Positions 24,842-62,526 of a stretch of DNA of 64,000 nucleotides are shown here, in pieces. Made by a program: the position numbers and the translations under genes. The number at the start of each line of letters is the position of its first letter. Within the stretch, counting starts at the first letter, position 1. The notes under the pieces were generated by a model that saw nothing but the letters and a program-made list of their open reading frames with translations, had not been told where the DNA came from and searched no databases. Source of the stretch: Capitulum mitella (lineage: Eukaryota > Arthropoda > Thecostraca > Pollicipedomorpha > Pollicipedidae); NCBI GenBank assembly GCA_030062745.1, contig CP099846.1, positions 3,038,001 through 3,102,000 on the forward strand. Direction: 5' to 3'.

Positions 24842-26179
24842 ATGAAGTGCGTGGTACGTATCAAACCTGCAGCATTCCAGCGTAAATGGCAATTCTGTGT
24901 TTGGCCCTATCTTCAACAGAATCATTTTCTGTGCTTTGATGTGCAATTATGTGTCAGTCCTAATGTTGGTCGATTTTATGAAACGTCCAGTATAGAGTCT
25001 GTATCTGTGGTGCATTTCTATATTTATTTGTGTTCGCTAAAGAACGACTAATTCAAGCCGTTCAGTTTTTGTGAAATGATGTATGGTCTTTTCCTTCATG
25101 GAAGGCTAAAATGGCTGGGTTTCATTGTAATTTTTCCTGCGGTGGGCATTTCTGCAACTCACATTTTCTGAAACGGTGAGAGCGGGACTTATCCTGGAGT
25201 ATCGGGAGTCCACGGAACTGTTTGAACACGCTGCCATTTTCCGCAGTACCTCAGGCTGTAGGACGCGGTCGACAGAGGCCCATGACGTTTGTTCTGCTGT
25301 CCTGTTCTCAGGCCCTGCTGTTGGTTGCGGTGACTTGTGCCTCGGCACAGGTCGCCTACTACACGTACACAACGCATCCGTTCTACAGAGCCTACTACAA
25401 CCCCTACCTCGTGAGTGCAGGCCGGACAGTTTGGAGCTGCACATCTGACCTGCTGGCTGCATTACGTGTCCCCGTCATATCGTCATGTCTTTTGGAGTAT
25501 CTACTTCAAAATTAACTGAATTTGCAAAATGCTGCCCATTTATCCCAGTTCTGCACTAGCTTTACATTTCTCGGATTGTAAAATGTCTTAAATCTCAAGC
25601 ATGTGCATGTACTTAGAAGAAAAACACAATTTCGCTCCCAGACAACATTGTCACTGTTTCAGAGCTGTACGAGCGCCTAGTTAGGAAAGAAACATGTCTT
25701 TCCTCCCAAATAACACAATCAGTACTTACATTTATGTTATTTTTCAGCTGAGAAAGAAGCGTTCTGCCCCTGAAGCCCCAGCCGACGACCAGCAGGCGGA
25801 CAACGCCCTATTGTACAGCAGTGTGTACTCTCCGTACACTCCTCTCGTGTACTCGTACCCGTCAGTGTACAATCCGTACGGAGTGCCGTTCCTCCGCAAG
25901 AAGCGCTCTGCCCCTGAAGCTCCCGCCGGCGACCAGCAGGCGGACAACGCCCTGTTGTACAGCAGTGTGTACTCTCCGTACACTCCTCTCGTGTACTCGT
26001 ACCCGTCAGTGTACAACCCGTATGGAGTGCCGTTCCTCCGCAAGAAGCGCTCTGCCCCTGAAGCCCCCGCCGACGACCAGCAGGCGGACAACGCCCTATT
26101 GTACAGCAGTGTGTACTCTTCGTACGTGCCCAGATTTTATTCCCATTATGGCTACCCTTACACCTTCTACAAGAAATAG
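24842..26179 (+). CDS. Tyrosine-rich secreted repeat protein, paralogue 1
   Basis: Join 24842..24853, 25312..25410 and 25748..26179; about 180 aa. Introns are 458 and 337 nt, both phase 0. Residues 1-16 (MKCV then ALLLVAVTCASA) form a signal peptide broken by intron 1 after codon 4. Exon 3 is three tandem units of 48, 48 and 47 residues (25748-25891, 25892-26035, 26036-26179). Each starts RKKRSAPEAPADDQQADNAL and continues with a tyrosine/proline/serine-rich tract (YSPYTPLVYSYPSVYNPYG). The last unit ends YKK. RKKR is a furin-type site, so the secreted chain could be cut into near-identical tyrosine-rich peptides. It is the most divergent of the five paralogues, lacking the AAHPYS motif and having SAPEAP at every unit. 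No AATAAA is evident in the 300 bp after the stop. The family is unknown to me; a cuticle or other extracellular-matrix role is inferred from composition and gene structure. Confidence 0.85.
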
Positions 26180-28298
26180 ACGGACCAGCCCTGCGCGACT
26201 TCACCGACTTCCCGACCGCCCCTACGTGTTCTTCGCCGCGTGAATTCGCAACTTGCACGCACCTGACATGTGCTCAAGTGTGAATGACGCCCTTATTGTA
26301 GTGTCGCTGAAAACAAAATGCAAAAAAAAAACATTTCCCAGGTTTTTTCGCACGGGCAGTAACCTGAGATTGTGCACAATGAACAGTGTTGCTGTGAACA
26401 AGGTCAAACAACAATGCTCCAAGAATACGGCGATCAAATTGCTCACTGCGTCTCCAAATAGTCTCATCTGACGCCGGATTGTGTCCGACTGCAAATTCAT
26501 ACGTCAGTGGATTTACCGTACGAAATGCGCGAAACAGCCTGAATCTAATCTCAGTTCACGTTGAGGGCTTCACTTAACCTGGCATCGGAGAAACAGCGAT
26601 GTATCTTTGGCCATGAAATACCAAATTTCGGCGGAACGATTTTCTGCGACATTTTTGTCTTGTTATGTGATTTATATTTGGGACTACTGTAACCATACAC
26701 GTAGCTCAGGGCTGCAGCTCATCTCCTTCAATGAAATGGGTCATGTTCTGCAAGTGTAACAATGGTTTTCGTTATGCCCATTTTCGACCACTTGAGATAT
26801 GCAAACAAGAACCATTAACAGTACAAATCGTGGGCCTGTCCAAGCGGCATCAAGGGCCAGTGCCCCCTTGAGGATTGAAGATTTAGCTTATTATTTACTT
26901 CATTTTCGGCGACAGAAGAAGGACTTCCTGACGCCGAAAATGAAGTGGCCGAAACCTGAATAGTTCTCCGTTTTGGGGATTTAAACCTGTCCTGGTCACC
27001 ATCTTGGCGAAATCCTGGCTACGTCCGTGTTACAGGTCATTACGATACGAGACAGAAAGCTCCAAGCCTGTATGGTAATACGCATTTGCTTGAGACTCGG
27101 AGTCAGGCGTTCCGTAACATGACAAAAAGGAAACATTTCTTTGCAGTGCAATTATTGCCAATTAAATATATTCCTTCCCAGGATGGGTCATGGCCACATT
27201 CACAGTCACTGACCGATACAGTTTCATTTTTGGCAGCGAATGATACTCACTCAGGGACAATTGCCAAGAAACACACAGAGTTACTGACTGGAGAATGAGA
27301 ACAAAGTGACGAAGTATCACCACTTGAAAGAAGAGGCACGAATGCTTATAGCTCACGTTTGACAATACGCCACCAGGAGCGCGAATTTCGAAATATGATA
27401 GGACTGTCTCATGACTAGGCATCAAGAAAAAGCAGTCCCGTAGCGTCTAGTCAGAGTGTTAGTAGTACAGTCAGATGTAGGGTTCGTTGTACCAGCTAAC
27501 CAGCACTGATGAGTTTTCCGTTGCGCGCCATTTGATGGAAAATGTGATTCTGTTATTGTTTGTTGTGGTCCTGACGCAAAACAATCCAGCATATTTTACG
27601 TGGGGTTGTTAAATAGGTAGGTTTGATTCGACGCAAGATAACCTTGTCGATGAAGGCCGATCTACTCGGCTAAACAAGGATCAAAGTGCTGCACTGCTGA
27701 CGCCAGTGGATTTTTTTTTAAATCCGATGTAAAGTATTAAAAAGAGCAATATTTATAGCATTCATTGCAGATGAGTACAAAACAAGTCTGGAAACAAAAA
27801 TCTGCCAAGGCACTACTTCCGAAAAATTTGGACACACACTGAAGATCCGCTAAAATAAGCCCTGCCTAACGAACATCATGTAACCAATGTATCAGGAACA
27901 TACAACAGAAACCTGGGAGCTCTTTGCACATCAGAATTTTTCGTTCTCCTCTACAGCTCACTGATTTTGCCTCATCTTACACACTGCAGCCGTATCCGGG
28001 GATCCAACACTCCTTGTATTGACAAACAGGTAAACTAAGTTTAGCATTTGCACCACGCGAAAACGGACCATCGTGCTCGGCTGATCATCGGTGCCGATCC
28101 TGGTACTCATACTTCCCATCTGTTCCGATGAATATAACATTTAAAATTCCCTGTCCTATTCAAATCCCAATTTTTGATGATTCTTCGTGACCTTTTAGGT
28201 AGTCGTCTTCCCCGGCCCCTTTCCAGCAAAATCGCACTTTCCCATGAGCTTAGACCAAAGAGAGACTGAAAACACTTACAGCCACAATCAGACCGACA
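26180..28298. other. Intergenic, no gene recognised
   Basis: This stretch contains a perfect 15-bp inverted repeat (ACTTCATTTTCGGCG at 26897-26911 and its complement at 26932-26946, loop about 20 nt). No coding region or transposon is recognised. Confidence 0.35.
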
Positions 28299-28652
28299 CA
28301 GGGACGTAGCCAGGGGGGGGGGCATGGGGTCATGTCCCCCCTAAACCAAGTGGTCTACACTATATGTATAGCGATTCTGCAGGAGAACGGAATAATGATC
28401 ATATATATGTTGCAAATGTAAACATTATATGTTTTCCTGTGCGTAAAATATGAGGTGGATTACGTAAAATTGCTGCGCTTCCTATAAATTTCGTCACATG
28501 CCAACGGCGTACGACAAAACTTGACATTTGGCCCCCTCCTGAGGGGGGGGGCATTTGTCATTTGACATTTGGCCCCCTCCTGAGGGGGCCAAATGTCGTA
28601 GCATAGCATAGCATATGTCATAGCACGTAGCCAAATCCTGGCTACGTGCCTG
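28299..28652. mobile_element. hAT-like miniature element, family C, copy 2
   Basis: Inverted ends CAGGGACGTAGCCAGG and CCTGGCTACGTGCCTG are flanked by a perfect 8-bp duplication, GACCGACA (28291-28298 and 28653-28660). The right part contains a partial internal duplication of the GCCCCCTCCTGAGGGGG segment. It is 354 bp with no coding capacity. Confidence 0.88.
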
Positions 28653-28772
28653 GACCGACAGCAGTAAACGTACCATCTAACTGCAGGGTAAAAACTGTCG
28701 GATTTTTTTCAATTTTTGCTCGGGCCCTAACATAGTTTTACATTAACTCTGTGGCGATGACGATAAAGAAAT

Positions 28773-28935
28773 CATAGGCGCAAACAAGGGGCCCGGGGGG
28801 CACGGCTCCTTCCCCTTAGACCCACATTATTTGTGGAAACCGTTGCACATCGTCTTACCGGCAGGCGGTTTTCGTATGACTTCAGTCCACTCTAAGCTTC
28901 GGTCCCCCCTGAAGAAAATCCTGGCTCCGCCCCTG
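28773..28935. mobile_element. Short hAT-like miniature element
   Basis: The right end reads CCTGGCTCCGCCCCTG; the left end CATAGGCGCAAACAAGGGG is a degenerate counterpart. A perfect 8-bp duplication, AAAGAAAT, flanks it (28765-28772 and 28936-28943). At 163 bp it is non-autonomous. Its right end resembles family C but the interior does not clearly match. Confidence 0.65.
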
Positions 28936-28943
28936 AAAGAAAT

Positions 28944-31445
28944 GACTTCAAAATGACTTGCAGCCGCCCGCCCCCTCCCCCTGAACTCGGCTATCGCGCT
29001 ACAAATGGCGTCATGCGTGATGCAAATGCCGCAATTTACTTTGTTCATCTAGTCTAGCCGCATACGCATCGTGACGTTGCCACCACGGCTTTGTGCGAGT
29101 GTTCGAAATCACTCAAATCTGATAATGCAGTGGCGGCATCCGATTCGCCAGTTTCGGAAATCCTGGGGCCTGGATAGCCCCCGCCAGGACGGCGAATGAT
29201 GTCCTCTATGTTCTGTCTCGGCCCAGTTGGCTGACGCACCCGAGACCCAGCTGCCGCAGCGCGGGGTCTCGAGCGGCCGGAGCGCGGGCTCTGGCGCGAT
29301 ACCGCAGTCATGGCTGCACGCGGCTCGTTGTCTTACGGCTTCACTAGCTTTTACTTGACACTGACGATGACGTCACCAAGGTAAACATGTTTTGCAATTC
29401 CATGTCGAATTTCATTTCGCCGTTTCATTGTCGATGTTTTACACTGCATGACTTTAGTTTACAACGCATGTTAAAATGAACTGACGGTTCAGTATGGAGC
29501 ATTAAAGAGCCGTAAAAGTTAAGTTCAACATTGTATTGACCATGACGTCATAAAGACAACCATGTTTTGTTTTTCGGCGTCTGAACGTACTTTGCCGCGT
29601 CATAGTCGATGTTTGTTGATTGCCGATGAAGAGCTGTAAAGTGAAGTTTAATATGATATTGACATTGACGACATAATGACAGCTATATTTAGCGATTTGA
29701 CTCCCAGTTTTACTTCCGCCATTCCATTGTCGACATTTTTATACTGTATATTGAATGTGGTTTGCATTGCATACTAGCATGAACTGTGGGTTCAATATCG
29801 AGCATCCCAGACCTCATACTAGGTCATCTTAGGCCCAGTACGCATTTGTCGTTTTCCGAGTACAGCGAAAATACGTTTTAAAAAGTAACTAAACGAACGT
29901 ATTTTTCGAACAGATATATTCACAGAATTTCTGACGACACCCTGCACGTGCGACGAATACAGCAGGCTCCTGAAACAATGCAACATTTCCGCGGTCTGAC
30001 ATTTAGCGGTTTTCTGCGGATTTCAGCGTACTGAGTAAACCAAGTGGTGTCCGACTGTCGCTGCGAACGACCGGCGCGGAGATATCGGCCCTTGGGACGC
30101 TACGCAACAGTCTGTGAAAATGTGCAACATGACGAAATCGACATGACGTTGCACGAGTTACATTTGACTAGTTTTGTTATCTTAATTCGAATCCGTACAG
30201 AAGCAACACAGGCCACGGATCCCATGGGTGTGAACGACATCTACGGTTGGCCTTGACTACTTGCGAACAATGTCTATTCAGAATCGTATTCTCTATGCTT
30301 TCGATGGGCTTAAAAACTCCAAATCATGCAAGGAAGCTCAAGACCAAACACACAAGTTGCTGCGGCATATCTTGACCATCTTTTCCCGTCAACTTCCGAA
30401 CGATAAAAAGCGACAAATTCCACATTTTTCGCCCAAACAATACGCGTATCAGGTCATTACAGGTGAGGTCATCACTTCGCAACCTAAATCACAGGAGCGG
30501 TTTCAAGGCATCGTTTACATTTCCGCACCTGCCCTGTTCTTGGGAAATAGCTTGTAAGAAGCTCATCAAGGATGACACAAAGGACAAGCGCAATACCCCC
30601 AACTCATTTGTCACCTAACGTGAGGCCATCAGCGATCATTTGTCGGCTGTGTACGGTACTGATTTAACTTCCTGTTTGTCACGTATGTGGCTTTGATGGC
30701 CAAGGTATTGTGAATACAAAGAAATGTCACATCTGAACCCCTCATGCACTTCTTCGCCATAAACTTGTCAGTGGCCAAAGATCAGGTCATGACACCGCTT
30801 CTGCTCGAAAACTAGATTGTCTAGCGCAAATTTTTATGACTCGTGATTAATGAAAATGTCCCGTTCCTAGTAACTGGAACGTGACGAACCTCAGCCAACA
30901 GCGAATAAAAAACGTTGCCAGTCAACAGCAAACTTGAAATCGCATTGCTGCACGGCTCGCTTCAGCCGTGCTGCTAGAGACGGGCTAAGAATTAACTTTT
31001 TAAGCTTGCGACGTTAACCGATTTTAATTAAATTTATTTGGCAGAGGCCTGACGGCAACGGCATTATGTCGTCGGGACGTTCCGCACGTGACCGAGCTCG
31101 AGCTTCGGGTCAGATCGTGGCTTTGTCACATGTTGTTCAACCCACAACGCAGGGGCTTGATGCGCAGGCTATGCATGCGTCGCATTGATACTCAGACATT
31201 GTTCTTTTTAGTTATCGAAATATTGATATCGCAAAATGCCGCATTATGAAGATATTCCTGATAACCCATTTTAAATGTACAGTCCCAATGTCATTTGCTG
31301 CTTAAATCGCCCTCTGTTATACTGCCCAAAACGGAATCTTAAAACACCGATCGAATACGCGCAGGAATTTGCCGTTGATAAATGTCATGCGTATTGATAC
31401 CAACCTCACATCGATGCTGTTTTCTCTGCTTTAAATTTCTTGTAG
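28944..31445. other. Mostly featureless, no gene recognised
   Basis: Apart from the doubtful ORF at 29054-29311, I see no supported feature. A short plus-strand frame at about 31066-31188 (MSSGRSARDRARASGQIVAL) precedes the candidate exon at 31446 and might be related to it, but no fitting donor was found. Confidence 0.25.
29054..29311 (-). CDS. Unassigned ORF, possible N-terminal exon
   Basis: An 85-codon frame begins MTAVSRQSPRSGRSRPRAAA and later contains PRQNIEDIIRRPGGGYPG and SDAATALSDLSDFEHSHK. It is GC-rich, with a basic, disordered N-terminus followed by an acidic, serine-containing part. It reads like the start of a regulatory protein, but no homologue comes to mind and no downstream exon was found. 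It may be a chance frame in a GC-rich patch. Confidence 0.2.
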   Translation of the reverse strand: MTAVSRQSPRSGRSRPRAAAAGSRVRQPTGPRQNIEDIIRRPGGGYPGPRISETGESDAATALSDLSDFEHSHKAVVATSRCVCG

Positions 31446-31664
31446 GGTCCAAAAGGATCGCCACCGAACACATCTGCTTCGTCTTTCCTGTCAGATCAAT
31501 CATACCAACCCGTTAATGTTAAAACGCGCAGAAAAAGACGAGATGAGTTCCGTGCGGTTAAACACAGGATAGCAGGCACCGAACCGTTCACAAGAGCCCA
31601 GGCAGTTGCTGGATATCGAAACGCCATCATAGGAAGAACTATGAGAAATGCGAACAGAGTCTAA
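31446..31664 (+). CDS. Candidate terminal exon, unassigned
   Basis: A pyrimidine-rich acceptor (TTTCTTGTAG, ending at 31445) opens a 73-codon frame ending in TAA at 31662-31664. The translation (GPKGSPPNTSASSFLSDQ, then VKTRRKRRDEFRAVKHRIAG, then a QAVAGYRNAIIGRTMRNAN end) has a serine-rich start and a basic helix-like end, with no low complexity. I do not recognise the family, and upstream exons are not identified. It may belong to a gene or to a decayed transposon. Confidence 0.3.
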   Translation, partial: GPKGSPPNTSASSFLSDQSYQPVNVKTRRKRRDEFRAVKHRIAGTEPFTRAQAVAGYRNAIIGRTMRNANRV

Positions 31665-31955
31665 AGGGCAAAAATAATATGAGGGAAATACATCTTCAGA
31701 GGCGACATTTTTCTGACAGACTATTTTTCGTACAGCACGCAGCGGGGCATTAAATGCATTGTTTCATTTTTACAGCTACGACACTCCAAACTGAGAGGTC
31801 CTTGTCTCAACACCAGAACAGACACGTTACAAGGAAACAAAAAGAGAAACAAAAACTGTCTGACATCTCTAGACGAAGCTGTACACGAGGCGTATATCCG
31901 CCTCCGTTCCCACGAGTGGGAGCTCAGGTCCGCCGAAGATCAAGCGACCCCCGTC

Positions 31956-32219
31956 TGAAATGAAAGCATCGTCACCAACGCTGATTGGCTAGTTTGGTGG
32001 CAAGAAATGGTGGTTTGCGATGCCCGTGGCAAGAGTTGGGCTGCAGTTGTTACAAGGGTAGGAGCCCGTGGTTCACTGGCACAGGTAGTCGTGCGAAACA
32101 GATTTGGAGAGAGCAGGTACTCGTATATGTTTCTCCTCGCCTTTCCTGACCGCAGAGCTTTCGAAACAACCCACATGTTTTCGGGGTCAAAATGGGAAAA
32201 GAAAACCGTGAGGGAATAA
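31956..32219 (+). CDS. Unassigned ORF with compact-domain look
   Basis: An open frame after a TGA at about 31953 runs to a TAA at 32217-32219. Its translation includes NADWLVWWQEMVVCDARGK, AAVVTRVGARGSLAQVVVRN and YMFLLAFPDRRAF, a tryptophan- and beta-rich pattern that resembles a folded domain more than a random frame. The first ATG is at 32007. It lies about 600 bp upstream of tyrosine-rich gene 2 and just downstream of the candidate exon at 31446. No family is recognised; a transposon origin is possible. Confidence 0.3.
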
Positions 32220-32724
32220 CCACCGTAACTTGCGTTAAGAGAACTACGTGCTGTCTGGTTTCCTGGATGTTCGGATGCTACGCAAGGTTTTCTTCTTTCT
32301 GCTCGCGCGATACGCCGTGGATCATAAGACGGTCTATTTGCGGCATTACGAGATGGCTGAAAGAGCTCAAATTCGCTCCAGCATCCATAGGAGCCCGTAA
32401 TGGCACGTTCACCCTGTTGCTGTTTATGTCACTCGGCGTACACGTGAGTTAAATGGTCGTCTGGTGCTCCTAAACTGTCACCAACAGACGGCTATGCTTT
32501 CGGCGCTTCGCACAGCGGAGTGAGCGCAAAGATCATGACAGCAGATCAATCTGCAATGACGATAATCGCTGCGTAGTTTGTCCTTTATTTCGGAAATCAC
32601 CATAAGTTACTCTGCGTGATACATGATTTGTTAGATAACAAACAGGAATATTCTTTGTTTGGAACTGTGTAAAGCTGCAAAGAACGTCGTACAAAACAGG
32701 TTTTCTCAAGGACACAAGTTTTTG

Positions 32725-32800
32725 AAGGCGTTGCTGTTCAAAACGTGATCTGATTGGTCCTGCCTAGGGTGTGCCTTGAGTCGAGCCCCTGCATATAAGC
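32725..32800 (+). promoter_or_regulatory. Core promoter of tyrosine-rich gene 2
   Basis: In order there are AAGGCGTTGC (32725-32734), GATTGGTCC (32752-32760), CTAGGGTGTG and TATAAG (about 32794), then the ATG at 32847. The same blocks in the same order stand upstream of genes 3, 4 and 5, so this is a conserved promoter module and not chance similarity. Confidence 0.75.
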
Positions 32801-32846
32801 AGACGTTCTTTATCATCCAACATTATTCAGCTCAGCTGCTCTCATC

Positions 32847-33911
32847 ATGAAGTGCATTGTGAGCAAAACATTATATCTGCAAGAACTGTAATGCAATCGC
32901 TGTTTGCCTTTCTTACGAGAACCTTTAAACACAAATAAATGTCATTACTTTTTAAGTGCACTTAAGGCAAAAAGATATTTCATTAAATAACCTTGCATTC
33001 ATTGCCTCAGAGCCCTGGTACACATGCTTCGGGTCAAATGAGCATGCACATTTGTTCCAGGCGCTGCTGTTGGTTGTGGCCACGTGCGCTTCGGCGTACT
33101 ACTACACGCCGGTGGTGTACAGCGGGTACTACGGCTCTCCTTTCTCGTCGATCTGGGTAAGAGGCTTGTGCACCTGTTTGTCACGTAGAGTTTCTCTTGG
33201 TTTGTTATAAGCTCTAGATTGTTGTAAGTGGTCGCCGCATTTTTATCAAAACGAGCATGTTTCGATCCCTTCATGACATGAAACGTCAGCGTACAGCAGC
33301 GAGGCCTTCAGTTTAGGTCACAGCTATGTCGGACGGACTCCAATACTCGGGACATAGTCGGACTGTGACAGAAGTATTTGCCTGGTGATCAGATATGGCA
33401 GGAGCTGTAATTTTGAACGATGACCATTCTTGTAATTCCCCAGAGAAAGAAGCGGGCTGCCCCGGAGGCTCCCGCCGAGGACCAGAAGGCTGACGAAGCA
33501 CTGCTGTACAGCTACTATGCTGCCCACCCTTACTCCTCCTACTACGACTACTATCACCTCCTGAAGAAGCGCGAGGCCCCCGCTGAGGATCAGCAGGCTG
33601 ATGAGGCGCTGCTGTACAACTACTATGCTGCCCACCCTTACTCATACTACAACTATGTTCACTACCTGAACAAGCGTGAGGCCCCCGCTGAGGACCAGAA
33701 GGCTGATGAGGCCTTCCTCTACAACACCTACTACGGTGGCTACCCGTACTACTCGTCCTACTACGGCACTCCATTCTACCGCAAGAAGCGTGATGTGGAC
33801 CAGAAGGCCGACGACTCTCTGATGTTCTACTCCTCGCCGATGGCTTACAGCGCCTATGGAGCCTATGGAGCCTATGGGGCCTACGGCTACCCGTTCATCT
33901 ACAAGAAGTAA
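32847..33911 (+). CDS. Tyrosine-rich secreted repeat protein, paralogue 2
   Basis: Join 32847..32858, 33061..33156 and 33444..33911; about 191 aa. Introns are 202 and 287 nt, phase 0. Signal peptide MKCI-ALLLVVATCASA is followed by YYYTPVVYSGYYGSPFSSIW. Exon 3 (155 aa, 33 of them tyrosine) starts RKKRAAPEAPAEDQKADEAL and has units of about 35-43 residues ending in KKR, NKR or RKKR. Units 1-3 share APAEDQ(K/Q)ADEA(L/F)LY and then YYAAHPYS or YYGGYPYYSSY. The last unit starts DVDQKADDSLMFY and ends with four AYG triplets and YKK. One dibasic site is NKR here where the other copies have KKR. AATAAA is at 34044-34049. Secretion is well supported; processing at the dibasic sites and a structural or peptide role are inferred. 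Confidence 0.9.
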
Positions 33912-34108
33912 ACAAGACCTACTGCCCGGACGGCCTACTACAAAGACTGTTTGAAGGGTTCTCGCATTGCAAAACAGACAAAGATGCTGTTGATCGATCT
34001 CAGCGCTTTTCCTGTTACCTTATGTGACTTCGAAGGGTCTGTGAATAAAGCATCTCCCTATAAATTGTTTTGTTGATGTTGTTTGCTGATGCAGATATTT
34101 TGCTGAAT

Positions 34109-34352
34109 ACCCGTTCATCTGCAAGAAGGAAACGATAAATACTGCCCCGAAGGTCACTACAACGAGAACCTGAAGCGTTCGCCCTTCGCAAAGCACGCAA
34201 GGATGATGCTGATTCCGACACCTTCGTAATCACTGTGAGTGAATTCCTGGTTTCAGTAAATAAAGCATCTCTTTCAAAACAGTATTCTCTTGAACTTTTT
34301 GACGGCTAACAGAAAGGAATGTGATTTTGGTTCGGTGCGATGAAATGTACTT
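34109..34352 (+). pseudogene. Orphan 3' end of a gene 3/4-type paralogue
   Basis: The segment starts with a relic of the coding end (YPFICKK, no proper stop). It continues with sequence matching the 3' UTR of genes 3 and 4 (CTGAAGCGTTCGCCCTTCGC, then AATAAAGCATCTCTTTC near 34259). It lies directly downstream of the true 3' UTR of gene 2, so two 3' ends stand in tandem. This is a remnant of an ancestral end or of unequal crossing-over. Confidence 0.75.
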
Positions 34353-34355
34353 TAA

Positions 34356-35574
34356 CCCGTCCCCGACTGGGGGGGTGGCAGTTGACTGCCCCCCCTGAGG
34401 TTTTTCTGGCATTGCGAGAGAACCAACAAACACAGAGCCACGAAACTTTGTGTACGTTTTGCTCCATCAATTTTACGTCTCGTGTCAAAATTTTGACCTG
34501 AGGTCAGCTCAGGTGCCTGACCTAGGTCAGGTCAAACAGACCTATGTTCAAAAAAGTTTAACGCCCTCTAACTTTTTCGCAAAACAAGATATCTCAGTAA
34601 TACTTTCAGAGAGTAGTGACCGTGATAGATGCAACAAATCTGCTATCTCAGATTTTTCGGAATTTTCCAGGTCATTGACCTAAGGTCAAGCCCATTTTTA
34701 AGACATATCGCCGTTTTTTCGGAAATTGACGGAATATTCCATAACATTTTTAGTGTGGAATGAAGCAGACATCTACTTACCGTCATTGGACAAAGTATCA
34801 GTGACCTCCAGCCATTGACCTGAGGTCAGGTCACGAATAACTGTAGTGGGCCAAAATGTACCACCGTCAAAATCGACGATGAACTACTCAGAATGCGTAG
34901 AAAATGGCAGAACTAACTTGCACAGACGTAATTAATACCAGGAACCTCAAAAAGTTTGAAAAAGTAGCATATTTTGGAAATAAATAGGCTCTCGCGAATA
35001 AAGCTCCGCCAACTTTGTAGACTGGTAACTAATCAATTTTCCCAAAATTTAAGCATGAGAAACCATCACAAGAACCACAAAGATCAATAAAATTGACATA
35101 GATTGTCCTTTTTCGCGAAAATAAAGGAACGCCAAAATTAGTTCCCGTCAATTTGGTACCGCATGCGCCAGCGGCGCGCACTGACGGCCGACCGGGAGAA
35201 TTACGGTGTCTTTAACTCAACGTTTCGGTGTATATATTGAACAAATCTGAGGAAATTAGACGTGTATCGGCATCCGCGGACATTTACTTGTGCGCTGGTG
35301 CCTTTACCTATGCGTTATTAGTCACAGCCCTTGAGATTCAGGCCATTTCTCGGTCTTATGCAGTCGGCTATGAGAAAACATATATAGGGCGTAAATTGGC
35401 TTACATATTATCTAAAACTAAAAATGAGACCAGTTTCGAGCTCTTCTCGTCACAGGCTTTCGACCGGTATGCTTATTTTTATCGTGCGACCAACCGTTCG
35501 TGAGTTAGAGGGGGGGCAGTCAACTGCCCCCCCCAGTCGCCGATGTTCGGGACGGACCGACGGTCGTGCGCGGG
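34356..35574. mobile_element. TTAA-flanked non-autonomous element, family B
   Basis: TTAA at 34352-34355 and 35575-35578 flanks 1219 bp, beginning CCCGTCCCCGACTGGGGGGG and ending in CGGG. Subterminal inverted repeats share the cores CGACTGGGGGGG and GCAGTTGACTGCCCCCC. The interior has no transposase but several paired half-sites (TGACCTAGGTCA, TGACCTGAGGTCA, TGACCTAAGGTCA). The corresponding flank of gene 3 lacks the element. It is probably piggyBac-like, by its TTAA target and CCC ends. Confidence 0.8.
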
Positions 35575-35578
35575 TTAA

Positions 35579-38765: not shown

Positions 38766-38829
38766 CGCGCGCGCGCACACACACACACACACGCACGTAC
38801 GCACGCACGCACGCGCGCGCGCATGCACG

Positions 38830-38875
<46 letters not shown>

Positions 38876-46349: not shown

Positions 46350-47482
46350 TTACTTCTTGTAGATGTACGGGTAGCCGTAAGCCCCGTAGGCGCTGTAAAC
46401 CATCGGCGACGAGTAGAACATCAGAGAGTCGTCGGCCTTCTGGTCCACATCACGCTTCTTGCGGTAGAATGGAGTGCCGAAGTAGGACGAGTAGTACGGG
46501 TAGCCACCGTAGTAGGTGCTGTAGAGAAGGGCCTCATCAGCCTTCTGATCCTCAGCGGGGGCCTCGCGCTTCTTCAGGAGGTGATAGTAGTAGGCGGAGT
46601 AAGGGTGAGCAGCATAGTAGTTATACAGCAGTGCTTCGTCAGCCTTCTGGTCCTCGGCGGGAGCCTCACGCTTCTTCAGGAGGTGATAGTAGTTGTAGTA
46701 GGAGGAGTAAGGGTGGGCAGCATAGTAGTTGTACAGCAGCGCCTCATCAGCCTGCTGATCCTCAGCGGGGGCCTCACGCTTCTTCAGGAGGTGATAGTAG
46801 TCGTAGTAGGCGGAGTAAGGGTGGGCAGCATAGTAGCTGTACAGCATCGCCTCATCAGCCTTCTGGTCCTCGGCGGGAGCCTCCGGGGCAGCCCGCTTCT
46901 TTCTCTGGGGAGTTACAAAGATTCGTTATCGTTCAAAACCACATGCCCTCCCGTATCTGACTGCAACGTAATTACATCTGTCACAGTCCGACTAATGTCC
47001 CGAGTATTTGAGTGCGTCCGGCATAGCTGTTAACTGTAATCTAAACTGAAGACCTCGCTTCCAGACGCTGACGTTTCATGTCATGAAGGGATCGAAACAT
47101 GCTCGTTTTGATGAAAATGCGTCGAACACATAAAACAATCTAGAGCCGATAACTAACCAAGAGAAACTACGTGACAAACAGGTGCACAAGTCTCTTACCC
47201 AGATCGACGAGAAAGGAGAACCGTAGTACCCGCTGTACACCACAGGCGTGTAGTAGTACGCCGAGGCGCACGTGGCCACAACCAACAGCAACGCCTGGAA
47301 CAAACAGCCCAGTCAGCTGGTTGTGAATATGCCATGCATCATGTACGAAAAACGCAGGCAGCGCGGCTGAAATCTCCTGTAGTTTGTCATAGTTTAAAAA
47401 GAAACCGAAAATATTGGCTCGCTTACAATTCGCTTTACGTATAACGAACAAAACAAATGGTTCTGCTTACAATGCACTTCAT
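46350..47482 (-). CDS. Tyrosine-rich secreted repeat protein, paralogue 3
   Basis: Complement of join 46350..46904, 47199..47294 and 47471..47482; about 220 aa, the longest copy. Introns are 176 and 294 nt, phase 0. Signal peptide MKCI-ALLLVVATCASA is followed by YYYTPVVYSGYYGSPFSSIW. Exon 3 (184 aa) carries four APAEDQ(K/Q)ADEA units where genes 2, 4 and 5 carry three; the extra unit (EALLYNYYAAHPYSAYYYHL) lacks two residues. Units end LLKKR. The final part is GTPFYRKKR, then DVDQKADDSLMFY and a C-terminus with only two AYG triplets before YKK. AATAAA lies at 46222-46227 on the minus strand. Intron 2 is homologous to that of gene 2, whereas intron 1 matches genes 4 and 5. Intact by inspection. 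Function inferred only: secreted, tyrosine-rich, probably cut at dibasic sites. Confidence 0.9.
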
Positions 47483-47530
47483 GATGGGAAGAACTTGGCT
47501 ATGCAATGCTGGATGGTTGAGACTGTCTGG

Positions 47531-47600
47531 TTATATACAAGGGCTTGACTAGACACACCCTAGAGTGGGCCAATCGAAATTGACATTGGGCGGCAACGCC
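47531..47600 (-). promoter_or_regulatory. Core promoter of tyrosine-rich gene 3
   Basis: Read on the minus strand: AAAGGCGTTGC, GATTGGCCC, CTAGGGTGTG and TATATAA (47531-47537), with the ATG at 47482. The order and spacing are the same as in genes 4 and 5 and close to gene 2. Confidence 0.75.
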
Positions 47601-48384
47601 TTTGTTAAACCTGTATGCTTCAAAGAAACCAGTTCCACCCTTTGTAGCGTTGTGTAATGCCGCACTAGGTTTGTGTTTGTTGTTTTGGAGATGCTGGGCA
47701 TCGCGCACAATGATTTGGATGGCGATGGGGGAAACAACAGATTGCAGGCTGCAAAATGTAGACATAGCCGCGTTTTCGTCGCAGTAAAATAGTAGAATGC
47801 AAAGGCTGCATGCTTGCTTCGCTTGCGGTAAGCGACGACATTTCGTGCGATGCGTGACAGCCTGCGGTGATTATGTCCCCACGGACGTTTGCATTCACCG
47901 TTGTGTGCCTGACACAAATTTCATTGCTCTTTATTTCTTGACACCCTAGATGTTCCTCGTTTTAAAACATTCCATACCTCATCCATGACACTTTTTGTGG
48001 CGTTTGACATATGGGTACATATAGTTCCTTGTTTTATCATGACAAGAAAAAATAAAGAAATTGTGCTTAATCCGTTCAGGAACTCCGGTGTCTTTGTCAC
48101 GTTGCATTACTGAAGAATAATCAGAAGTCATTGCTATAGTGTGTAAACCTCGTGCTATTCAAAAACGAAAACTCGACACTTTTCAGGGGTGTCATTTTCC
48201 ATAGATCTGGATGTGCCTAGGCCCAACAAATAGTGCTGCATAGTCCCGTCAATGCTCATCTGATCTTTACCGAAGTTTTTTACGGGAACAAATGTCAAAT
48301 CACAAATGTATGTAAGAAGGCTCATGAAAAAGTAGTACTAGGGATCAGGAATTTCATACAACAGAATGTTAGTACAAATATATA

Positions 48385-48451
<67 letters not shown>

Positions 48452-50162: not shown

Positions 50163-50203
<41 letters not shown>

Positions 50204-54789: not shown

Positions 54790-54919
54790 TTTATTCACTG
54801 ACACCAGGAGTTCACACACAATGATAAAGGCGTTGGAACCATTATCATCTTTACGTGCTTTGCGAAATGAGAACGCTTCAAATTCTCGTTGTGGTAGACC
54901 GTCGGGCAGTATTTATCGT

Positions 54920-56005
54920 TTACTTCTTGTAGATGAACGGGTAGCCGTAGGCCCCATAGGCTCCATAGGCTCCATAGGCGCTGTAAGCCATCGGCGACGG
55001 AGTAGAACATTAGAGAGTCGTCGGCCTTCTGGTCCACATCACGCTTCTTGCGGTAGAATGGAGTGCCGAAGTAGGACGAGTAGTACGGGTAGCCACCGTA
55101 GTAGGTGTTGTAGAGGAAGGCCTCATCAGCCTTCTGGTCCTCAGCGGGGGCCTCACGTTTCTTCAGGTAGTGAACGTAGTCGTAGTAGGAGTAAGGGTGG
55201 GCAGCATAGTAGTTGTACAGCAGCGCCTCATCAGCCTGCTGATCCTCAGCGGGGGCCTCACGCTTCTTCAGGAGGTGATAGTAGTCGTAGTAGGAGGAGT
55301 AAGGGTGGGCAGCATAGTAGCTGTACAGCAGCGCCTCGTCAGCCTTCTGGTCTTCGGCGGGAGCCTCCGGGGCAGCCCGCTTCTTCCTCTGCAGAGTGAC
55401 AAAGCCGTCAGCGTCCCAAATGATAGCATGTAACACAGTAATTCCTTAGGACGAAACACTCGTTACATCTGCCGTTATTTGATGACGTGATATTTTGACG
55501 AAACATTCGAGCCCTCTAGGCTCTAGCCACGACCGCCTCTCCTTTTTAAATAAAGACCTCAAACACATCCACTGGCGTTCGTTTTACCGAGAACTGTTTG
55601 CTCCGTGTGAGAACTCATGCAAGATCCTGATTCTGATAAATGTTGAGTAGAGTATCATGGTCTTGAACCACTGTTCTTCCGAGAAAGCTAAGCGCAGAAA
55701 ATGTATGCATTCTTATCTTACCCAGATCGACGAGAAAGGAGAACCGTAGTACCCGCTGTACACCACCGGCGTGTAGTAGTACGCCGAGGCGCACGTGGCC
55801 ACAACCAACAGCAACGCCTGGAACAAACAGCCCAGTCAGCTGGTTGAGAATATGCCATGCATCATGTACGAAAAACGCAGGCAGCTCGGCTGAAATCTCT
55901 TGTAGTTTGTTTTAATTTGAAAAGAAGCCGAAAATATTGGCTCGCTTACAATTCGTTTTACGTATAACGAAGAAAACAAATGGTTCTGCTTACAATGCAC
56001 TTCAT
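54920..56005 (-). pseudogene. Tyrosine-rich secreted repeat protein, paralogue 4, frameshifted
   Basis: Complement of join 54920..55388, 55722..55817 and 55994..56005. Promoter, ATG, signal peptide (MKCI-ALLLVVATCASA), splice sites and the first three repeat units look intact, and the structure matches gene 2. In the last unit, after DDSLMFYS, one extra G (at about 54999-55000; CGACGG where the paralogues have CGACG) shifts the frame. The normal end with AYG triplets and YKK, with its stop at 54920-54922, is replaced by a frame read to 54795. That makes exon 3 197 aa, not 155, with a tryptophan- and leucine-containing tail reaching the polyadenylation signal (54790-54795). Everything before the shift is under evident constraint, so the lesion is recent or a sequencing error. 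It could also still be expressed with a new C-terminus. Confidence 0.75.
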
Positions 56006-57120
56006 GATGGGAAGAACTTGGCTTTACAATGCGGGATGGTTGAGACTGCCTGGTTATATACAAGGGCTTGACTAGACACACCCTAGAGTGGGCCAATCAA
56101 AATTGGCATTGGGCGGCAACGCCTTTGTTAAACCTGTATGCTTCAAAGAAACCAGTTCCACCCTTTATAGCATTGTGTAATGCCACACTAGGTTTGGGTT
56201 TGTTGTTTTGGACATGCTGGGCATCGCGCACAATGATTCGGATGACGATAGGGGAAACAACAGATTGCAGGCTGCAAAATGTAGACATAGCCGCGTTTTC
56301 GTCGCAGTAAAATAGTAGATTGCAAAGGCTGCATGCTTGCTTTGCTGCGGTAAGCGACGACATTTCGTGCGATGCGTGACAGCCTGCGGTGATTATGTCC
56401 CCACGGACGATTGCTTTTACCGTTGTGTGCCTGATACGCATTTGAACACCAGCTTGTCTGATACTCTTTTCATCCATATCCTGATGACAACGGCTGTAAG
56501 ACCATCCAAGCACTCACAAACCCGAGGCGATAGAGAAGCGGAACATAGACGAGGAAGTAGCCTAGTCGTTATGGGACGCGATACCCCGTTTGGCTCTTTG
56601 AAGTAGCGCAAAGACCATGCAGAGGACCTCAAATGGCGTCATCTCGGTGGATGCCGGTGTTCTTTCAGTCTTATGAAACATAACCAGTAGGGCATACTTG
56701 GAGGGCTCATAATGACTTCTGACGGTGACTAAGGACTAACATTGTTGTTAGCATGCAGTCAAGCAATCAACATCAGGTTGGCATGCAATCAACATGCAAT
56801 CAACATCAAGTTAGCATGTTAGCATGCAATCAATAATTCAAATACTGAATGATCCCTCTGGGGTCAATACAAGGTCAAAAAGGCTAATGATCTCAATTCA
56901 TGGTTTTGTGTCGTATCAAGACTTCTCGCTGACATTCCTCGAGGAAGCGGTCTTAGATTAGAAATCTTCCACGGTACTGACGTCAAATTTTTGAGGACCA
57001 TATAAAACAATGAAAGTTGGCGAGGCAAAATTGCAGAGCGATCAGAGCAGTGGTTAGTGGTTACCTTGCGCTACAAAATTTCAGGTGAAGGTTGCACTCG
57101 CCTGCACTAGCGACGGTTAA
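55389..57120. repeat. Duplicated block around gene 4 (paralogous to 61910-63641)
   Basis: Introns (333 and 176 nt) and the 1115-bp upstream flank have exactly the same lengths as in gene 5 and differ by scattered substitutions. The flank includes a small tandem of AGCATGCAATCAACATCAAG-type units at about 56749-56832. It ends at GCGACGGTTAA, the point where a family A element has inserted in the gene 5 copy. No second gene is seen in the flank. Confidence 0.85.
56054..56125 (-). promoter_or_regulatory. Core promoter of tyrosine-rich gene 4
   Basis: On the minus strand: AAAGGCGTTGC, the ATTGGCCC box, CTAGGGTGTG and TATATAA (56054-56060), with the ATG at 56005. Nearly identical to gene 5 and gene 3. 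Confidence 0.75.
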
Positions 57121-57846
57121 AACACTTATTGTTGGCGCCAAACATGTTGTCGCTACCTGTAGAAACAAGATGTACAAAGTGAGGCCTGCACACACCGCGC
57201 CGTAAACAAAGCCAGTTTTTTACGGACGCCATGTGTACCGGGGATTTCTGACGCAATTTCGATTACATGTTTCTGGTCGTCAAAAGGCTGCTCAGAAAAT
57301 CCAGATGCTTTCCATTTGCTCCAGTTCTAAATTGTGTGAGGTGCAAAAAGAATACAAAATATTTTGCTTGGGAACTGTGTTGTTGAAGTTGGCAAACTTA
57401 CCTGATGGTGGTCGCTAGACACTTTGTTGACGCTTTGACAGCGGACAGGAACGCCGGGTTGTGAATCAAAACCTTCGAGGGTAGCACATTGTCCTTACAA
57501 CAAATGTGATCTTGCTTAGATGCGTAAAGGTGGAGGAAACTACAGGTTTCAAGCGAAAGAGCTCCGTTGCATCCTGAAATCGTTCACAGACAGCAATCAT
57601 GATAACTTCTGTCCTTCATTCACGATGCTTGTGTCTTGAGCACACGGTTGCCGCACGCTAACTAACATACTAACCAAAATGCATGAAAAGTAATGATTTT
57701 ATTCGTAAAAAATAACTGTGTGACGCCTGTTTAGGCGCATTAACACGTCAAAATTTCAGCGACCGGCGCAAAGCTAATGCGTGAAACCCACGCCGGTCTT
57801 ACAAAGCAGACTATCTGCTGTCGAGCTGACGAGCAAACGATACTGT
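57121..57846. other. No gene recognised
   Basis: A 61-codon plus frame at 57233-57418 has no recognisable features. I see nothing else. Confidence 0.3.
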
Positions 57847-57850
57847 TTAA

Positions 57851-59084
57851 CCTTGTTCTCGTACTCTTAATGCAAGGGCGCATTCCCTTATAGGGGTTCT
57901 TATTCCCCCCACGAGATCTCGAGAACCACGCGTTCGATTTCATCGCAACGTACGACAATCGATTGGCTATGACTTAAACTATGTTTTTATGAAAAAAGAA
58001 AATTTGGAAATCATGAAAGGTTTAGATACAGGGGGAAAATACATCAGAATGGGGAGGAATATTTCCTGAATTGTTATAATTATGCCGTTTATGGACTGAT
58101 TTTGACGCAATTGGTATGAGTCGAGAGATCATCGATATGATTTCTACCACTGGCCCATACGTTAGGAATTAGAAAAAAATGCCTTCACGATGTTTGGAAA
58201 TGGGAGAAATATTTTTTTTAAAAGTTAATTAATATGACAACTTTAATTTTTTTAACTTTCACTAGTTGTTTCATACTTAAGAAATATAAATCTTATTACA
58301 CTGGTTGTATTATGTTGGCATATGCAGCGCCAAGGACATAAAAAAGGAGAACTGTCGTGGGCACCCGTTCATCACGTCAGCTTATGATCTTTGACCTTAA
58401 ATGACCTCACAAGACCTCAGAATCACTTGGAATGGCTTTGAGCTCATTTCATCATGTTTGAAAACGTTTTCCATCATTTGAATTCTCCATATTTATAAAA
58501 TTGCTATTTATGGCCGTAGTGATATAGGGCACGAGCACGGACATTTTGAATCATAGCTTCTTGACCCGACCTGATATCATCCTCATACTTGAAGCACAAC
58601 AAGAGCACTGTTCTAAACAATGACACTAACTAAACAAAAGGACGCCGTTCTAAGTCATTGGTATTCCGGACTACGCATTTTGAAAACTGTCGTCAAAAAT
58701 AATTACCAAAGAAATCAACTTTTGACGTTGAATGACCTTGAAAAGTGGCCTCAAGCTCTCATGAGTATTTTCTCGTATTTGTGTCTAGTTATTTATGTAT
58801 CCACTTGTATAACCTTTTTAAGTTTCATCGTAAGAATTCCATTTTTGTCAGGCATTTTTACCTTCAGTATTTCCAAAAAATATCCTGAGATGTTTACTAA
58901 CAACGTAGCCTGGGCCCACCCCTGAGCAAAATGAAGACATGCAAAATTTAGCATAACACCTGAAAGGAACAGGTAGGAAAAGCTACCGAGTTTCGTGAAG
59001 GTGCTTCAGAAATCCTGGAAATGGCGATCCGGAGAAAAAACGGAGAGGGGCTTCTGAAGCTTCCCCTCCCACATGGGAATAGGG
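57851..59084 (+). mobile_element. TTAA-flanked non-autonomous element, family A copy 4, old
   Basis: The right end GGGAATAGGG followed by TTAA (59085-59088) is well kept. The left end is degraded (TTAA at 57847-57850, then CCTTGTTCTCG in place of CCCTATTCCCGG). The interior follows family A throughout (for example GAGATCTCGAGAACCACG, GACCGACCT-type blocks and the CCCACCCCTGAGCAAAATG-like end), but with many substitutions. This is the oldest copy in the window. Confidence 0.75.
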
Positions 59085-59088
59085 TTAA

Positions 59089-60852
59089 TGCGGCACTGAC
59101 TGGGGTATTTCGCTAGCCATCAGTTTCTAAGGAGGGGAACTGTTTTTCCCCAGATTGTCTCTAGAGCCAATGGTCCGTTTTCGGCGATTCAGGCGGAAAT
59201 TCATAGCCCGTCATCCTGAATTCCCTGAATCTCCCAATAAACCCCATTTGTTGACCACTAGGTCAACGCCAGATCAAAGGCCGAAAAGAGGCAGTTATCT
59301 GGTAACAGCTTTGGAAATGTATTTACGTTACAAGAGTGTTGGGAATGGCTTTTTGTGTTTTCAAACGAACTCTTTTTGTACGGCAGACAGTATTTTTGTA
59401 AAAATTGGCCTGAGGTCATCCTCGGTCACGAGGACAAATAAGATCATGGGCTGAGTTTTGGCCTTTTACGTGTTTCTAATGTAGCATTTAATGTGGCGTT
59501 CAGTTTGCGTGTGCTCGTGTTTTGTAATAACCAATGACAAATATTGTAGTGGATGTATGCATGCAATATACAACAAAGAGCTTATTTGTATTTCGTCTTA
59601 CAGCAGTTTTATTTAATGTTTGCCCTAATATTGGACAGGTCAGTGAGCTTATTATTGTATCATTCAGCAACTGCACAAAGCGTGTGCATTGCATTTCTTA
59701 TTTAATTTACGAGCTGCCCATTAACCCGAAAAATCTATCAGAAGGACAAGCACATTGTGAGATAGGCCGTAGTGATTATTGAGGTTGTCACACAGTCATC
59801 ATGCAGAATCTTATAGGATAATATTTCCGTTTTCAAAATAATTTTTGCAACTTTTCAGCCATGAAGAATTTACTGGTGCTTCTGCAAGTTCTGTGTGTGT
59901 GTGCTGCTGTTTACTGCTAGTTTTGCACGAAAATCATAGCTTGAACGTACACTAAGCCTGCAATCTGACGTCACCTCTTACTAATTTTTATTTTTGGGAA
60001 ATTTGAAAAATTGTGTGCTAGCGATGAAAGTGTGGGAGATATTAACTTCTGGTCATTTGGCCCTCCGTTCGAAACAAAAAATCGGCAAAACCAAGGGCCT
60101 TAGGACCTTGTCGACGGTGGGTAAAACTTTTGCAACATTGCATGCCTTGGACCTGAAATTGGCGTGGAGTGCACGACTGGGTGTGGAGTTCAGGGGCTAT
60201 TTAAAAGGCTGTTCTCATCAAAGCCTTTAATCCCCAAAACCACTCCAGCTATTATCTACTGTAATTCTTATCAGAGATAATAAAAACTCCCAGAAAACAC
60301 TCGCAGCGTAACATAGTCACGTAACAATGACTCCAATTCGTCAAATGGCTGAGGCCCGTTTTTCGGCAGAATGTTGAACATGGAAATAAGATCACCAGGA
60401 ACGACAGGTTAATGCCGGACATCATCGCACGTATTTTGTCAACTCGGCAGCAACCAGCGGTTTTCACCTCATCACAGGAATAGGAGACGTCTTGGTCACC
60501 AGGTCACTGTCGCTACCGCTGTGCTGGGGAGTTGAAATGCCTTCTGTGGGTAAAGACGTATGGCAAGCATTTGTTATATATGTTCCTGATTTTACAAGTA
60601 TTTGTTATATATGTTCCTGATTTTGCGCAAACATTCACACATAACTGAAACTGCTTCAGACGACATAAACGTGATCCGTGTTGTAAACTTGGTGAAAATA
60701 GGTTAGCAGAAACACGTATTTTGTGTTCTGTTTTGTCAGCAAGAGGCTTTTGAAAACATATGAATGCCATAAATCACAAGTCTCAAAGTATTTCTAAGGT
60801 ACATGCTTAACGTATGCGGTACAGCTTAACGTCTATTACCGCCAAGCTAATA
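59089..60852. other. No gene recognised
   Basis: A 32-bp tandem duplication (ATTTGTTATATATGTTCCTG twice) lies at about 60570-60640. Open frames at 59155-59454 and 59994-60230 are not recognised and lack supporting splice or promoter signals. Confidence 0.3.
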
Positions 60853-61106
60853 CAGGCACGTAGCCAGGGGAAGGGGGCCATGGGGCCATGCCCCCGAGCT
60901 TAGCGGTCTGCACTAGATATTTAGCGATTTCGCAGGAATAAGGAAGAGGGGTCATATATGTCATGCAAATCCAAAGAAAGTTTTTCCTACACGTTGAATA
61001 TGAGGTTAATTGCATGAATTGCTCCTTTTTCCTATAAATTTTGTCATATGACAAAATTTGACCTTTGCCCCTCCCCCTCCCCAGTGGAATCCTGGCTACC
61101 TGCCTG
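60853..61106. mobile_element. hAT-like miniature element, family C, copy 3
   Basis: Inverted ends CAGGCACGTAGCCAGG and CCTGGCTACCTGCCTG are flanked by an 8-bp duplication with one mismatch (AGCTAATA at 60845-60852, AGCTAATG at 61107-61114). At 254 bp it shows what the interrupted copy at 17504-18981 looked like before its insertion. Confidence 0.88.
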
Positions 61107-61447
61107 AGCTAATGGTGTCATGGGGGTGAAGTCACGTGAATAGCAGTTCGCGGCTGCAGACCCCGATCCAAAACGAGTCATAAAGAACTGTCGTACTGAC
61201 TAACACGGCAGATGAGGCATGTAGTGCTTCATTAATGCATCCTGCTCCGATTTTCCCATTTCAGTAGCTTTGTTTTTTTGTAAGCATCAGCAAAACAATT
61301 GATAGAGAGATGCTTTATTCACAGACCCTTGGAAGTCACATAAAGTAACAGGAAAGACACTGGGGTCGATCAACAGCATCCTTGTCTGTTTTGCAATGTG
61401 AGAACCCTTCAGTCTTTGTAGTAGGCCGTCCGGGCACTCAGTTTTGT

Positions 61448-62526
61448 TTACTTTTTATAGATGAACGGGTAGCCGTAGGCCCCGTAGGTCCCATAGGCGC
61501 TGTAAGCCATCGGCGACGAGTAGAACATCAGAGAGTCGTCGGCCTTCTGGTCCACATCACGCTTCTTGCGGTAGAATGGAGTGCCGAAGTAGGACGAGTA
61601 GTACGGGTAGCCACCGTAGTAGGTGCTGTAGAGAAGGGCCTCATCAGCCTTCTGGTCCTCGGCGGGAGCCTCACGCTTCTTCAGTAGGTGATAGTAGTTG
61701 TAGTAGGAGGAGTAAGGGTGGGCAGCATAGTAGTTGTACAGCAGCGCCTCATCAGCCTGCTGATCCTCAGCGGGGGCCTCACGCTTCTTCAGGAGGTGAT
61801 AGTAGTCGTAGTAGGCGGAGTAAGGGTGGGCAGCATAGTAGCTGTACAGCAGCGCATCATCAGCCTTCTGGTCTTCGGCGGGAGCCTCCGGAGCAGCCCG
61901 CTTCTTTCTCTGCAGAGTGACAAAGCCGTCAGCGTCCCAAATGATGGCATATAACGCGGTAATTCCTTAGGACGAAACCCTCGTTACATCTGCCGTAATT
62001 TGATGACGTGATATTTTGACGAAACATTCGAGCCCTCTAGCCTCTAACAACGACCGCCTCTCCTTTTAAATAAAGACCTCAAATACATCCACTGGCGTTT
62101 CGTTTTACCGAGAACTGTTTGCTCCGTGTGAAAACTCATGCAAGATCCTGATTCTGATAAATGTTGAGCAGAGTATCATGGTCACGAACCAGTGTTCTTC
62201 CCAGAAAGCTATGCGCAGAAAATGTATGCATTCTTCTCTTACCCAGATCGACGAGAAAGGAGAACCGTAGTACCCGCTGTACACCACAGGCGTGTAGTAG
62301 TACGCCGAGGCGCACGTGGCCACAACCAACAGCAACGCCTGGAACAAACAGCCCAGTCAGCTGGTTGAGAATATGCCATGCATCATGTACGAAAAACGCA
62401 GGCAGCTCGGCTGAAATCTCCTGTAGCTTGTCATAGTTTAAAAAGAAACCGAAAATATTGACTCGCTTACAATTCGCTTTCCGTATAACGAACAAAACAA
62501 ATGGTTCTGCTTACAATGCACTTCAT
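61448..62526 (-). CDS. Tyrosine-rich secreted repeat protein, paralogue 5
   Basis: Complement of join 61448..61909, 62243..62338 and 62515..62526; about 189 aa. Introns are 176 and 333 nt, phase 0. Signal peptide MKCI-ALLLVVATCASA is followed by YYYTPVVYSGYYGSPFSSIW. Exon 3 (153 aa) starts RKKRAAPEAPAEDQKADDAL. It has two YYAAHPYS units ending LLKKR, a YYGGYPYYSSYFGTPFYRKKR unit, and DVDQKADDSLMFY with AYGTYGAYG before the final YKK. The frame is intact at the site where gene 4 is shifted. The polyadenylation signal (minus strand) is at 61314-61319. Promoter, introns and 5' flank resemble gene 4, but the 3' UTR resembles that of gene 2, so the gene is a mosaic. Function inferred as for the other copies. 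Confidence 0.9.

Follow-up and report, generated by a model that had tools for sequence, protein, structure and literature searches.

The window, a stretch of 64,000 nucleotides, holds five paralogous genes whose products may well be secreted structural (cuticle or matrix) polyproteins that are cut into short tyrosine-rich peptides; we give this reading a probability of about 0.5. The course that we infer for cleavage, assembly, cross-linking and tissue is as follows. The signal peptide would be removed from the precursor, a furin-type convertase would cut at the RKKR/KKR sites and a carboxypeptidase would then trim the basic residues. The predicted products are one leader peptide, rich in tyrosine and about 20-25 residues long, and 3-5 unit peptides. 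A unit peptide would measure about 28-44 residues and combine an acidic DQ(K/Q)AD head with a core rich in Tyr, Ala, Ser and Pro, its C-terminus being bulky and hydrophobic. Such heads may hold the sticky cores in solution; once released, the cores would assemble, and their tyrosines would perhaps be cross-linked by oxidases in the cuticle or a similar extracellular layer.

In our splice models, all five genes have three exons; the introns are in phase 0 and are bounded by GT and AG. On the forward strand, gene 1 (24842..26179; exons 24842-24853, 25312-25410, 25748-26179) encodes 180 aa with three units and RKKR sites, its exon 3 (25748..26179) containing a 144-base repeat at 25754-26125, and gene 2 (32847..33911; exons 32847-32858, 33061-33156, 33444-33911) encodes 191 aa with four units. 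On the reverse strand lie gene 3 (46350..47482; exons 47471-47482, 47199-47294, 46350-46904; 220 aa, five units), gene 4 (54920..56005; exons 55994-56005, 55722-55817, exon 3 from 55388; four units) and gene 5 (61448..62526; exons 62515-62526, 62243-62338, 61448-61909; 189 aa, four units). Exon 1 always comprises four codons (MKCV or MKCI), exon 2 the rest of the putative signal peptide (MKCIALLLVVATCASA, read by inspection of the translations) and the leader, and exon 3 every repeat. Arthropod cuticle-protein genes typically have a very short exon 1 and, within the signal peptide, an intron in phase 0. The cuticle-like layout proposed in the sequence-only reading, with the intron after codon 4, was found in all five genes; secretion, also proposed there, is probable.

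The same reading had put 3-5 repeat units in each gene and 33 tyrosines among the 155 residues of gene 2 exon 3. Both counts are correct, the latter being 39 tyrosines in the mature part minus 6 in the leader. Its common leader type and its APAEDQ-type acidic stretch in every unit hold in part: the leader of gene 1 differs (QVAYYTYTTHPFYRAYYNPYL), as do its heads, which are of the APADDQQADNALLY type, and the final unit of genes 2-5 (DVDQKADDSLMFY) is without the APAE part. All five paralogues lie where they had been placed, but the frame of gene 4 is broken. One extra base near 55000 shifts the frame in the final unit, so that it departs from the family pattern past DSLMFYS and stays open to 54795; the end at 54920 had presumed an unbroken frame. 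Gene 4 is either a pseudogene, a broken allele or an assembly error. The region 61387..63521 (reverse strand) is a tandem duplicate of 54856-57000, with 94% identity over at least 2.1 kb including introns and upstream sequence, the bounds being the limits of our search. Exon 3 is broken or degraded at 4 of the 12 places on C8 and C9.

ATTGG (88-94 bases) and TATA (52-55 bases; 52 in gene 1) precede the ATG in all five window genes, for which the gene 2 promoter region (32750..32846, forward strand) is typical. The poly(A) signal is kept in four of the five, with AATAAA 133 bases past the stop codon in gene 2. Across 21 pairs, gene 1 left out, dN/dS of exon 3 was 0.09-0.29, which shows that this exon is under purifying selection; gene conversion may have lowered both dN and dS among the copies. 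The aligned KKR columns are invariant except for a single N in gene 2, and synonymous changes occur inside the KKR codons.

The punctuation of the polyproteins was analysed with 31 sites and 31 unit peptides from eight intact C8 and C9 genes. It is regular: in each of the eight genes the mature residues were shuffled 5000 times, and no shuffle reached the observed number of [KN]KR motifs, in agreement with the claim of a tyrosine-rich, regularly punctuated protein. There are 17 RKKR sites, 13 KKR sites without Arg at P4, and one NKR, which replaces KKR in gene 2. The residue before a site is always bulky and hydrophobic (L in 18 cases, W in 7, Y and F in 3 each), and the one after it is A, E, D or S. 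Glycine stands before no site, as had been noted. Every unit peptide is acidic (net charge -2 to -6) and the leader peptides carry 0 or +1. Apart from those in the sites, in the head's DQK and in a terminal KK, there are hardly any basic residues. The cores contain 19-44% Tyr and 0-6% acidic residues, and the mature parts of genes 1, 2, 3 and 5 contain no cysteine on inspection.

The family reaches far past the window. A survey of the arthropod genome (477 Mb, 16 contigs) showed the five genes to be part of a wider superfamily. It forms clusters on three contigs, C8, C9 and C12, and has a further pair at another place on C8 and perhaps one or more members on C16, in total about 26 places, nearly all clustered. 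Its signature is the convertase-type site, the acidic DQ(K/Q)AD head and the tyrosine-rich core. A DNA pattern of the head matched 49 times genome-wide, 48 of them inside the superfamily; the remaining match, on C3, is due to chance, the opposite strand carrying a frame that by eye resembles a transporter. The layout of the window genes recurs in three of the four C12 loci printed (the fourth stretch ended short of exon 1) and, of the distant C8 genes (C8b), in the single one examined. C13 gave a match (E 0.044). In the stretches fetched around the C10 matches (E 0.66-7.2), frames with 80 or more residues and over 6% Tyr were inspected and none was family-like, and a scan of viral contigs did not confirm a relative.

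Heads and cores, divided by hand, behaved differently across subfamilies. The residue order of the heads matched better than that of shuffled sequences in all six comparisons (0-2 of 1000 shuffles as good), that of the cores in two of six at the 1% level; plain identity favoured the heads modestly (21 of 32 pairs). Across subfamilies the heads keep sequence order and the cores mostly composition alone, a pattern that sets the family apart from precursors of hormones or antimicrobial peptides. This does not hold universally for the cores, since order was kept between C12 and C8b (1 of 1000 shuffles) and between gene 1 and C8b (9 of 1000). The acidic stretch had been taken for a spacer; because its order is kept in every cross-subfamily comparison, a functional role is likelier than that of a filler.

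Searches of Pfam, NCBIfam and PDB, and of open papers with six motif strings, yielded neither a named family nor a description of this one, in line with the sequence-only reading, which knew of no named family with this architecture. Judged against these resources, the family is provisionally new. A FidL_like match of gene 1 in Pfam (E 0.00014; 22.6 bits, the cut-off being 27; best stretch 14 residues), an SGP match in a C8b exon (E 4) and the best PDB matches (E 0.48 for gene 2, 0.18 for a unit profile) are attributed to chance. Rfam gave no match at gathering scores. Neither a chitin-binding nor another known cuticle domain was found in genes 1 and 2, one C12 protein and the C8b exons; a Cuticle_1 search without a match is uninformative, its control having matched nowhere either. 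The AlphaFold2 model from eight aligned exon 3s was uninformative (mean pLDDT 37, all residues below 50).

Among the cuticle proteins of arthropods, the low-complexity ones (CPLC-type and other non-RR groups) are small secreted proteins with Tyr/Ala/Pro-rich repeats encoded in tandem clusters. The family, which is probably secreted too, resembles them in size, repeats and clustering and in the short first exon and the intron in the putative signal peptide, but differs by its regular RKKR/KKR punctuation and conserved acidic DQ(K/Q)AD head; we know of no named cuticle group that has both. CPR cuticle proteins are likewise secreted and clustered, and numerous in this genome, where 150 places were scored out of 627 Chitin_bind_4 candidates, but their RR domain is absent from the family members scanned, and among the 150 matches listed none lies near the family, the nearest being about 1 Mb off on C8. 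Shematrin and prisilkin, likened here by description only, share the Tyr-rich matrix character and the basic C-terminal residues; they are molluscan shell-matrix proteins and, unlike the family, Gly-rich and unpunctuated. In the precursors of apidaecin and yeast alpha-factor, each repeated unit consists of a dibasic site, an acidic/Ala/Pro head and the product. The family has the same plan, yet residue order is best preserved in its head, and its product is acidic, long and Tyr-rich.

An antimicrobial multipeptide precursor like that of apidaecin would account for the repeated units, the acidic N-terminal parts adjoining dibasic sites and the tandem family. Because the products are acidic, and with leader peptides hardly charged and cysteine absent from the mature parts of genes 1, 2, 3 and 5, we consider it most improbable. 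A neuropeptide-like or pheromone-like precursor releasing several related peptides would explain the signal-peptide-like start, the multiple copies and the regular dibasic sites. Lack of amidation glycine counts against it, although unamidated families such as orcokinin exist. A barnacle orcokinin precursor is listed in PMC3462748, a survey of barnacle neuropeptides whose main text does not contain the words KKR or NPLP. In a signalling precursor the product should be better conserved than the spacer. Here the heads are conserved and the cores mostly unordered, and for this reason the neuropeptide-like reading is disfavoured; with about 26 mostly clustered places besides, it is very unlikely.

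Alternatively, the protein could remain uncut, with the KKR blocks as charged linkers, its basic, acidic and aromatic blocks self-assembling or phase-separating as one chain. Composition, clusters and the cuticle-type gene layout fit this equally well, and the sites without Arg at P4 and the NKR are weaker than the furin consensus. Yet a charge linker needs neither full RKKR at more than half of the sites, nor a bulky hydrophobic residue before and A, E, D or S after every site, nor the near confinement of basic residues to the sites; we regard this explanation as rather unlikely. A barnacle adhesive (cement or temporary adhesive) overlaps with both structural readings, the tissue being different and the processing the same. 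The genome may be a barnacle's, and a leucine-rich group of barnacle cement proteins, similar by description only, is reported to be enriched in tyrosine (PMC8371367); the available text of that paper does not mention convertase sites ("furin" 0 occurrences), and we regard this origin as unlikely.

A cleaved structural polyprotein agrees with the large tandem clusters, which are often seen in structural families. Against it count the lack of a known cuticle domain in the members scanned, the distance to the listed Chitin_bind_4 places, the two core comparisons in which order is kept, and the broken or degraded copies of exon 3. As a tentative and somewhat doubtful extension, the genes could make up a superfamily of arthropods whose single soluble chain is divided by furin-type cleavage into several acid-headed, Tyr-rich peptides; these would assemble and cross-link extracellularly, and the conserved DQ(K/Q)AD head would switch solubility or assembly. 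If the polyprotein is processed as predicted, regular dibasic sites along a secreted protein would not by themselves be evidence of a hormone, and peptide-precursor processing would be joined to extracellular materials in arthropods. The products would then be short Tyr-rich peptides, genetically encoded and open to direct tests of assembly. Should the genome prove to be a barnacle's, the family would be a candidate component of its cuticle or adhesive layer.

Each repeat unit consists of an acidic DQ(K/Q)AD head, a tyrosine-rich core and a dibasic or furin-type site. Unit anatomy was read from the eight intact genes on contigs C8, which carries the window, and C9; gene 4 and the degraded copies were removed beforehand. 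These genes contain 31 sites (RKKR 17, KKR 13, NKR 1). The sequence-only reading had noted the lack of glycine ahead of the cleavage sites, and this holds throughout: the preceding residue is L (18), W (7), Y (3) or F (3). The following residue is E (14), A (7), D (7) or S (3). Predicted cleavage would yield 31 unit peptides of 28-44 residues, each with a net charge of -2 to -6; the eight leaders measure 20-25 residues with a charge of 0 or +1, and exon 3 ends in YKK in all eight genes.

The genome (477,042,490 bases, 16 contigs) was searched with exon 3 of gene 2, one member of the subfamily cluster on contig C12 and one of the distant C8 members. Combined, the three queries placed the superfamily at about 26 places or more: at least ten at C8 3.06-3.36 Mb, at least two close to the C9 end (30.65 and 30.67 Mb), at least 11 at C12 10.66-10.73 Mb, at least two at C8 21.37 Mb (the distant members) and one short, weak place on C16 (E 5.2, 0.086 and 0.50 with the three queries, respectively). 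Exon 3 is intact in 8 of the 12 C8/C9 places; gene 4 and the copies at C8 3114.5 kb, C8 3145.0 kb and C9 30672.8 kb are visibly degraded. On C12, the copies at 10678, 10694 and 10730 kb have stops within the match, as has one of the two at C8 21.37 Mb. Exon 2 is present in the C8 genes at 3107 and 3179 kb, but a pattern search did not find their exon 1. The C12 genes, with exon 1 visible in three of four loci inspected, begin MKFL followed by VLLAVLGAAAAAEDQKADDATL, and the distant C8 gene begins MKLL followed by VLLAVLGAASAQ; a short first exon is common to both. A DNA pattern for the head, DQ(K/Q)AD then GAN and GC, matched 49 times genome-wide, 48 of them within superfamily loci, and the reversed control pattern matched once. 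The remaining match was taken as chance. The head of gene 1, DQQADN, falls outside this pattern.

The five paralogues proposed in the window all have splice models, and the products of genes 1, 2, 3 and 5 have 180, 191, 220 and 189 residues. Gene 4 leaves the family pattern because its last unit contains a single additional base at about 55000; the candidate explanations are a pseudogene, a broken allele and an error of the assembly. Upstream of the start codon, every one of the five carries a TATA box (52-55 bases away) and an ATTGG motif (88-94 bases away). AATAAA follows the stop by 123-133 bases in four (gene 4 measured from 54920) and is absent in the 400 bases downstream of the gene 1 stop.

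Genes 4 and 5, together with their introns and roughly 1 kb of upstream sequence, form a tandem duplication (54856-57000 and 61387-63521), 94% identical over 2.1 kb or more; the comparison ended at its own bounds, so that the true length may be greater. Gene 3 shares about 720 bases (5' part and upstream) with it at 96-97%. The best exon 3 stretch of gene 2 (33441-33963) matches gene 4 (54869-55391, opposite strand) at 95% over 524 bases, compared with 91% for gene 5 and 88% for gene 3. Because gene 2 is nearer to gene 4 here than to the other two, this suggests gene conversion.

Exon 3 pairwise dN/dS was 0.09-0.29 in 21 pairs, values that gene conversion may distort; the seven gene 1 pairs were left out because their dS could not be computed or was around 2 or higher. 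Where aligned, the KKR columns are invariant except for one N in gene 2. With the head/core boundary drawn by hand, mean identity across subfamilies was 0.57 in the heads against 0.49 in the cores, a modest lead, with heads ahead in 21 of the 32 pairs. The contrast is sharper against same-residue shuffles (four units, one per group, out of the 10 used for identity). Heads gave 0-2 per 1000 in all six cross-subfamily comparisons, whereas cores gave 1, 9, 40, 116, 469 and 866. Therefore heads retain their order throughout and cores mainly their composition, the exceptions being C12 and gene 1, each against the distant C8 member.

The cleavage punctuation would fit a hormone precursor, in which the product is expected to be better conserved than the spacer; here the heads keep order and the cores mainly composition, and we disfavour this reading. 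An antimicrobial precursor, also cut at such sites, is disfavoured as well: most yield cationic products, and all 31 unit peptides are net negative.

The sequence-only reading could point to no named family with this architecture, and the searches gave none. At cut-off, Pfam returned none for genes 1 and 2, one C12 protein and the distant C8 exons, nor did NCBIfam for gene 2; neither gene 2 nor the unit profile had a convincing counterpart in the PDB, and six family motif strings had zero occurrences among 5.39 million open-access papers. Novelty is limited to these four sources, and arthropod protein databases may well hold family proteins annotated as uncharacterized.

Across the genome, Chitin_bind_4 scored above cut-off at 150 or more places (150 scored of 627 candidates), which marks it as an arthropod's, with very large tandem cuticle-gene clusters at C9 23.43-23.58, C10 28.58-28.75 and C13 17.71-17.86 Mb. 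The insect odorant-receptor family 7tm_6 had only three matches, an argument against an insect, although intron-split genes could escape. Five weak matches (best E 0.0105) were obtained with 92 residues of barnacle cement protein 20k; three of them, cysteine-rich (E 0.01-0.2), lie at C1 27.60-27.65 Mb, possibly a diverged cement-protein cluster. Within the window, a GC-rich minisatellite (12029-12919; 23-base unit, higher periods 46 and 69 bases) has long open frames on both strands, probably its by-product; others lie at 1587-2108 (25-base unit) and 24239-24501 (22-base unit, about 340 bases upstream of gene 1). Broken minus-strand frames at 7419-8165 resemble a Penelope-type reverse transcriptase by eye, and their pieces had no Pfam match at E 0.01. 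A minus-strand frame upstream of gene 3 (47499-47870) reached Pfam TMEM52 at E 0.0011, 19.3 of 26.4 bits and so under cut-off, probably by chance.

We favour a secreted structural polyprotein that is cut into short peptides, because conserved sites and acidic heads, tyrosine-rich cores of freer order, clustered copies and a cuticle-type gene layout occur in combination. The convertase-type sites would be cut and the tyrosines might then be cross-linked at the destination that we infer for the protein.
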